Source: Armatimonadota bacterium (GTDB taxonomy: Bacteria > Armatimonadota > Armatimonadia > Armatimonadales > Capsulimonadaceae). Taken from it: a DNA stretch of 32,234 nt. Numbering within the stretch: the stretch's first letter is position 1; every line of letters begins with the position of its first letter. The notes beneath the pieces were generated by a model that worked only from the letters and a program-made list of their open reading frames with translations, searched no databases and was not told the origin of the DNA. A program made the position numbers and the translations under genes. The DNA is taken from assembly GCA_025354405.1 (NCBI GenBank), contig JANXMY010000006.1:1-32234 (forward strand), read 5' to 3'. This document shows, in pieces, positions 10,396-32,175 of the stretch.

Positions 10396-10472
10396 CTCCT
10401 GCCTTTATGCCCTCTTCCGCTCTCAGTCAAATTGCTGATTGGAGTCGGGAGATGGCTTTATTTTTCACTGAT

Positions 10473-10610
10473 TAGAGCTCTTGCGTCAGTACCCTGCACT
10501 GGAAGTGCAGGTCTTTTGAGGTGCGATTGTCTGCCTTCGCAGACAATCGCTTTGCAGAAGACCCGGATTAGAAATCCGGGCACGGCAAGGCGACTTATGC
10601 AAGAGGTCTA
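10473..10610. repeat. 138-bp palindromic element, copy A
   Basis: This element has imperfect terminal inverted repeats (consensus GACCTCTTGCGTAAGT; here with GAGCTC and CAGT variants). They enclose three hairpins: CCTGCACT/AGTGCAGG, GCGATTGTCTGC/GCAGACAATCGC with loop CTTC, and CCCGGATT/AATCCGGG with loop AGA. It lies between the sigma factor and the DUF2007 gene and shows no credible coding frame. The same 138-bp element occurs at 19615 and 24572 in the same orientation. Confidence 0.9.
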
Positions 10611-10635
10611 TTATATTTTTGTGGTACACTGCTCG

Positions 10636-19614: not shown

Positions 19615-19752
19615 TAGACCTCCTGCGTAAGTACCCTGCACTGGAAGTGCAGGTCTTTTGAGGTGCGATTGTCTGCGAAGACAGACAATCGCTTTGCAGA
19701 AGACCCGGATTTCTAATCCGGGCAGGGCAAGGCGACTTATGCCAGAGGTCCA
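19615..19752. repeat. 138-bp palindromic element, copy B
   Basis: Same element as at 10473 and 24572. Its first hairpin is identical; the second reads GCGATTGTCTG/CAGACAATCGC with its loop inverted relative to copies A and C, and the third has loop TCT where copy A has AGA. The termini are more degenerate (CTCCTGC and GCCAGAG). It lies between the hydrolase and the GGDEF/HD-GYP gene. Confidence 0.9.
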
Positions 19753-24571: not shown

Positions 24572-24709
24572 TAGACCTCTTGCGTAAGTACCCTGCACTG
24601 GAAGTGCAGGTCTTTTGAGGTGCGATTGTCTGCCTTCGCAGACAATCGCTTTGTAGAAGACCCGGATATCTAATCCGGGCACGGCAAGGTGACTTACGCA
24701 AGAGGTCGA
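24572..24709. repeat. 138-bp palindromic element, copy C
   Basis: The best-preserved copy: GACCTCTTGCGTAAGT and ACTTACGCAAGAGGTC are perfect 16-bp terminal inverted repeats. The three internal hairpins are as in copy A, except that the third has loop TCT with one stem mismatch. It sits between the glycosyltransferase stop and the toroid-protein start inside what should be one operon, so it would be transcribed and fold in the mRNA. Confidence 0.92.
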
Positions 24710-32025: not shown

Positions 32026-32175
32026 AGAGACCACCCTGCTGCGTGGGGCTAAAGAAGAAGAGACCTGCGTGATTGGCCGCAGGAGAGGAGACCTACCTGC
32101 TGCTCCGTCGGAGAGGAGACCTACCTGCTGCTCCGTCGGAGAGGAGACCTACCTGCTGCTCCGCAGCTTCCTTCC
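32026..32175. repeat. Tandem 28-bp repeat array with small hairpins
   Basis: GGAGAGGAGACCTACCTGCT begins at 32082, 32110 and 32138, giving a 28-bp period for nearly three perfect units. Two degenerate units with GAGACC lie to the left (near 32026 and 32059). Most units end in a short inverted repeat (CTCCG/CGGAG, CCTGCG/CGCAGG, GCTGC/GCAGC). No coding frame is convincing. From 31887 to 32234 nothing else is seen. The array is not a CRISPR because there are no spacers. Confidence 0.75.

Follow-up and report, generated by a model that had tools for sequence, protein, structure and literature searches.

MITEs of the IS5 family are known, for example the IS5-type MITEs of Porphyromonas gingivalis (PMC4596501), which are short and gene-less, are bounded by terminal inverted repeats (TIRs) of IS5 type, and are usually inferred to be mobilised in trans. 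Dispersed hairpin repeats affiliated with Y1 transposases include REPINs with their RAYTs (PMC3116915) and TIRtrons with their TIRYTs (PMC3733652), in which an inverted pair of hairpin units occurs either gene-free or flanking Y1 genes. We examined a 32,234-nt stretch of DNA from an Armatimonadota bacterium (hereafter the window) that carries three copies of a palindromic element resembling the former in its ends and the latter in its core. Sequence comparison argues that this element is very probably a MITE of an IS5-family (ISL2-like) IS, enclosing a transposase-less Y1-type hairpin repeat; both kinds of element are known, and it is their combination that is unusual. An earlier note on the same DNA had proposed either a non-autonomous mobile element or a REP-like family. 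The first description holds for the ends, which match those of IS5-type IS and are accompanied by 3-bp ANT duplications, and the second for the interior, whose hairpin repeat is REP/REPIN-like and associated with Y1 transposases. An anonymous repeat thus gains a putative mechanism and a partner.

In contrast to the P. gingivalis elements (PMC4596501), the interior here is the repeat of another transposon class, rather than a deletion derivative of an IS or a minisatellite, and set against them the present element shows a consistent 3-bp ANT duplication. The closest likeness of the ends is to IS5-family IS with an ANT duplication and the TIR AGACCTCTTGCRNAAGT, which are 854-980 bp long and carry two overlapping frames for HTH_Tnp_4 and DDE_Tnp_4, whereas the element has no transposase. 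IS5-family IS with a 3-bp ANT duplication presumably constitute the ISL2 group of the ISfinder scheme; a literature search for a definition of that group found nothing. The nearest description that we found for the core is the TIRtron/TIRYT class of Di Nocera and colleagues (PMC3733652; see also PMC6006769). Unlike REPINs/RAYTs and TIRtrons/TIRYTs, the hairpin unit of this family sits within IS5-type TIRs. Literature searches for nested REP/MITE composites, for Armatimonadetes MITEs and for the letters of the TIR returned nothing relevant.

Three intergenic copies of a 136-bp element

The three copies (A, B and C) lie on the same strand of the window and align without gaps, copy C sharing 93% identity with A and 91% with B, which bears out the earlier description of three copies with common orientation and architecture. 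They form the sole long direct-repeat family detected by a repeat search of the window, in which the ends of copy C also appeared as an inverted pair. Their equal length likewise stands, at 136 rather than 138 bp: side-by-side reading of the genome's copies shifted the boundary one base inward on each side, one flanking base having been counted in at either end. The element proper thus occupies 10474-10609 (A), 19616-19751 (B) and 24573-24708 (C), all on the forward strand, as set by alignment and a genome-wide scan for paired ends. It has the form AGACCTCTTGCGTAAGT...ACTTAYGCAAGAGGTCT, with 3-bp ANT flanks on either side, and its outer TIR, AGACCTCTTGCRTAAGT, inverted at the opposite end, measures 17 bp and not 16 bp as first reported. 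In copy C (AGACC..GGTCG), the left TIR AGACCTCTTGCGTAAGT (24573-24589, forward strand) differs at 0-2 positions from the TIRs of IS5-type IS (from G014, G116 and Chloroflexota), and the right TIR CGACCTCTTGCGTAAGT (24692-24708, reverse strand) has one mismatch, its last base being changed from T to G.

All three copies are intergenic. Copy A follows a sigma-factor gene, copy B lies between genes for an alpha/beta hydrolase and a GGDEF/HD protein, and copy C is found just past the end of a glycosyltransferase gene. The element contains no transposase gene and at 136 bp is too short for any gene, in agreement with the absence of a coding frame noted earlier.

Genome-wide distribution and target-site duplication

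The host genome is a 3.6-Mb MAG in 233 contigs. The full-genome search that the earlier note had advised revealed 21 TIR-bounded elements, besides one right-truncated copy (C32); this is a moderate number, not the high one that had been anticipated, and the window is locally enriched. Twelve of the 21 measure 136 bp, and two of 126 bp have lost 10 bp of hairpin 2. In two others, of 183 bp, the central hairpin is longer; three (167, 181 and 193 bp) carry an undeleted core, and two are remnants of 66-67 bp. The copies are 87-99% alike, which suggests that their amplification was not very recent. A 31-mer of the element had no match among the GTDB contigs scanned, a set that possibly does not include the host genome itself.

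In 11 of the 21 elements the two 3-bp flanks are identical and of ANT form (chance about 1/64 each), and 37 of all 42 flanks are of this form (chance about 1/16 each). Copy A is bordered in the paired-end scan (L008) by ATT on both sides (10471-10473 and 10610-10612, forward strand) and copy C by AAT and ATT, while the flanks of copy B, GCT and ACT, retain no duplication. From these patterns we read the ANT flanks as a target-site duplication. The boundary was at first read as TA..TA (Tc1/IS630-like), an interpretation abandoned since ANT is present on both sides.

A congener of the host (G001) is syntenic with the window, and its intervals corresponding to copies B and C are shorter and lack the element. 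The empty sites sought by the earlier note are thus found for B and C as regards absence of the element, but not as exact insertion junctions, the spacers being too diverged; the region of copy A has no alignment in G001.

The putative IS5-type partner

We sought the 17-bp end in 291 genomes of the phylum, allowing one mismatch, and found it in 20 of them; a control with the reversed sequence was nearly empty. Two of these genomes hold the TIRs at the spacing of an IS. In G014, from the same order as the window genome, they lie 892 bp apart, and in G116 877 bp apart, with ATT on both flanks; each pair encloses two overlapping reading frames. The encoded proteins match Pfam HTH_Tnp_4, DDE_Tnp_4 and DDE_Tnp_1 above cut-offs, and their best NCBIfam model is IS5 family transposase (IS5_4), which spans both halves; the bit score of either half falls below the curated cut-off, which is set for the whole protein. 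The G014 transposase is a 99% match to one in JAUJOK010000003.1 (an Armatimonadaceae MAG). Among 44 relatives of the transposase in GTDB genomes, mostly from Chloroflexota, more than half have a TIR pair at 854-980 bp, with ends AGACCTCTTGCATAAGT / AGACCTCTTGCAAAAGT and mostly identical ANT flanks. The transposase with matching ends that the earlier note suggested looking for occurs in G014, G116 and Chloroflexota, and no full-length IS with these ends was seen in the host's own MAG: in its 233 contigs, with up to three mismatches, all TIR matches belong to short elements or stand singly, with no pair at IS distance. An IS5 transposase of the PF13340 type, present in one copy in the host genome, was considered as partner and rejected, its ends lacking the TIR of the element.

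Short elements with the IS5-type ends occur in several genera of the phylum, with interiors very unlike each other and flanks that are mostly identical. Of 24 further TIR-bearing elements at other loci in the phylum, most with different interiors, 16 have identical 3-bp flanks. The assignment to IS5-family MITEs rests on this correspondence, in that the same ends and duplication bound IS encoding IS5-type transposases, and the ends and duplications together argue for mobility by such a transposase. We propose that a DDE transposase of HTH_Tnp_4/DDE_Tnp_4 type would recognise the 17-bp TIR in trans and insert the element at ANT, duplicating those 3 bp.

Two features of related transposases were observed in addition. 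In four loci (L171, L162, L138 and L139) the IS5-type transposase is encoded in two overlapping frames that divide it at a conserved site (..AKRSVTPKK..), a pattern that suggests programmed frameshifting. An IS5-type IS of the DUF4096 (PF13340) type, with ends CAATCTATTGCAAAAGTC and a transposase split across several frames, is inserted in a palindromic repeat of G001 (C200; L065).

A Y1-type hairpin core

A search of the host genome with the element revealed a second set of repeats, which has its right half in common with the element. This free hairpin repeat family comprises about 24 stand-alone copies scattered in the genome without the TIR, each an inverted pair of units in which an outer hairpin CCCGGATT..AATCCGGG is joined by a 15-nt linker to an inner hairpin. 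The core of the 136-bp element follows the same plan, with its inner hairpins merged and hairpin 1 altered on both arms (CCTGCAC..GTGCAGG). In copy C, hairpin 1 (CCTGCACTGGAAGTGCAGG, 24592-24610, forward strand) corresponds by fold and covariance model to the outer hairpin of a Y1-type unit. It is followed by a 15-nt linker (TCTTTTGAGGTGCGA, 24611-24625, forward strand) that in position and letters resembles the linkers of free repeats, such as CTTTAGAAGTGCAA and TCTTTGATAAAGCGA. Hairpin 2 (GCGATTGTCTGC..GCAGACAATCGC, 24622-24649, forward strand) folds as both inner hairpins collapsed into one, and hairpin 3 (CCCGGAT..ATCCGGG, 24661-24679, reverse strand) equals the outer hairpin of the free family. 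At C101, C219 and C58 the free form itself lies directly within IS5-type ends, and the copies at C102 and C211 are intermediate between this form and the 136-bp core, their hairpin 2 retaining the longer spacer of the free repeats (ACATAAGA..TCTTATGT).

The free repeats are in turn associated with a Y1 transposase gene. One flank of a Y1_Tnp gene in the host genome (G000:C208) carries a complete repeat, the opposite flank half of one. The closest Y1 genes of related genomes (G001:C279, G004:C235 and G022:C29) are bracketed by analogous hairpin-linker-hairpin units with different hairpin letters, the layout at G001:C279 being that of C208; such units are also present in those genomes without a Y1 gene. 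The covariance model, a check that the earlier note had envisaged, was built from nine Y1-flanking units of G001 and G004 only, and it matches all three window copies (10492-10550, 19665-19722 and 24596-24649; E values, in ascending order, 2e-4, 9e-4 and 7e-3, the next match in the window being at 0.59) as well as the free repeat family. Applied to TIR-bounded loci with other interiors, it matched within one G036 element (L142), next to the G116 IS and, weakly, in one flank. An alignment mixing both hairpin families was dropped, their loop lengths differing by one base. By these sequence comparisons, the three inner hairpins are not MITE sequence; their match is to the hairpin-linker-hairpin ends of transposase loci of Y1 (IS200/REP) type in the same clade.

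The core shares with REPINs (PMC3116915) and TIRtrons a build of two hairpin units in inverted arrangement, dispersed without a gene and also flanking a Y1 gene; it shows neither the GTAG tag nor the RAYT-type protein of REPINs. No GTAG was noticed at the hairpins read, and in NCBIfam the C208 protein scores 69.6 bits with the IS200 model (cut-off 55) and 27.7 with NF047646 (cut-off 80), placing it by score with IS200/IS605 rather than with REP-associated proteins. For these two reasons, "REPIN-like" is used here of the build of the core, not of membership among GTAG REPINs.

The match of the core to Y1-flanking repeats, together with the free repeats bordering the C208 gene, could be taken to mean that the whole is a single Y1 (REPIN-like) element moved by a Y1 transposase, with the TIR as its outermost hairpin arm and the likeness to IS5 accidental. 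We consider this very improbable, given that some two dozen core copies lack the TIR, and that the TIR also encloses unrelated interiors and ends real IS5-type IS. The ANT duplication suits a DDE element; Y1 elements insert without target duplication. Indeed, the TIR-bounded IS with ANT duplications largely refute it. Another proposal is that the composite has two means of movement, an IS5-type transposase acting on its outer ends and a Y1 transposase on its inner hairpins. The recognition features of both systems are present and both types of gene occur in the phylum; against this, the collapsed inner hairpins and the changes in hairpin 1, relative to the free family, may have abolished Y1 recognition, and among the copies read we noticed none that lacked the TIR yet had a hairpin 1 of CCTGCAC type, so that we regard such dual mobility as distinctly unlikely.

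Under the preferred reading, an IS5-family MITE enclosing a Y1-type repeat, the space between the TIRs would be filled, with hardly any padding, by a derivative of a Y1 (HUH, IS200/REP-type) transposon that has no transposase; it would consist of an outer hairpin followed by a 15-nt linker and an inner hairpin, then the same inverted, the inner pair collapsed into one. A Y1-type repeat would likely have entered an IS5-type MITE, or become trapped between its ends, and the composite would then have been amplified by the IS5-type transposase; both this order of events and mobilisation in trans are our inference.

Other repeats occur near these structures. Within the half repeat beside the Y1 gene lies a different miniature element (G000:C208:245-352; L137), whose ends, GGCTTTGTTGCATAAAT, are IS903-like and which shows a duplication of 9 bp, GATCAAAGG. 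Short tandem or palindromic repeats (e.g. GGGCGCAGCAAGCAGCGCCCC and AGAAAGAATCAGGATGCTTT) cluster around free hairpin repeats in the flanks of L028, L062 and L064, and a tandem repeat with a 28-bp unit, AGAGGAGACCTACCTGCTGCTCCGTCGG, occupies 32056-32163 of the window.

Stability of the cloverleaf fold

The fold itself invites a different explanation, namely that the cloverleaf is a structured RNA or DNA (a regulatory RNA, terminator or nucleoid-binding site) selected for a host function. All three copies are far more stable than 200 dinucleotide shuffles (z -8.6, -7.7 and -11.6) and all are intergenic; moreover, the hairpins are less mutated than the closing stem (97.9% versus 90.7% of cells paired). 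The pattern of change nevertheless speaks against selection on structure: over 45 pairs in 12 copies there is no compensatory change and pairing does not exceed that of shuffles, hairpin 2 is shorter by 10 bp in two copies and most of the core is missing from two others, the congener lacks the element at sites B and C, and no Rfam family matched the window. A host function of this sort thus has little credibility. Of the 17 pairs in the outer stem, many are disrupted in one copy or another, again without compensatory change, so that of the strong hairpins closed by an inverted repeat in the earlier description, the stable fold is retained and the conserved closing helix is not; the stem behaves as a TIR of the kind recognised by a transposase. 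Inverted apices were also seen (GCCTTCGC versus GCGAAGGC, TTTCTAA versus TTAGAAA). A tRNA search of the window found none, and with neither tRNA, Rfam match nor covariation a structured RNA was rejected as a candidate. The origin of the element's parts accounts for the fold, and a host function is not needed. As a general caution, TIR and core should be told apart in "cloverleaf" repeats before these are named structured RNAs.

Enclosure of other palindromes in the phylum

Across several genera of Armatimonadota, one widespread IS5-type end (AGACCTCTTGCRNAAGT, with ANT) surrounds palindromic repeats that differ from one another. If general, such enclosure would provide a simple route by which an unrelated transposase could carry REP-like hairpins to new sites. 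G036 has an unrelated palindrome, GTCATTCCGAGGGAGCC..., which is free at several sites and lies inside the same IS5-type ends at others, with differing padding. In G001, one TIR-bounded element has a Y1-type core of different letters (L150). From these two cases, it seems that IS5-type ends have enclosed dispersed palindromes on more than one occasion. The broader notion, that such ends repeatedly capture the hairpin repeats of other systems in Armatimonadota, the composites keeping both signals and spreading by either a DDE (double-strand) or a HUH Y1 (single-strand) route, is a speculation that we think rather unlikely to hold. A GTCATTCCGAGGGAGCCTCGGCGACCGAGG palindrome of G036 (e.g. L234-L251) was also observed dispersed both free and within IS5-type AGACCTCTTGCAAAAGT ends.
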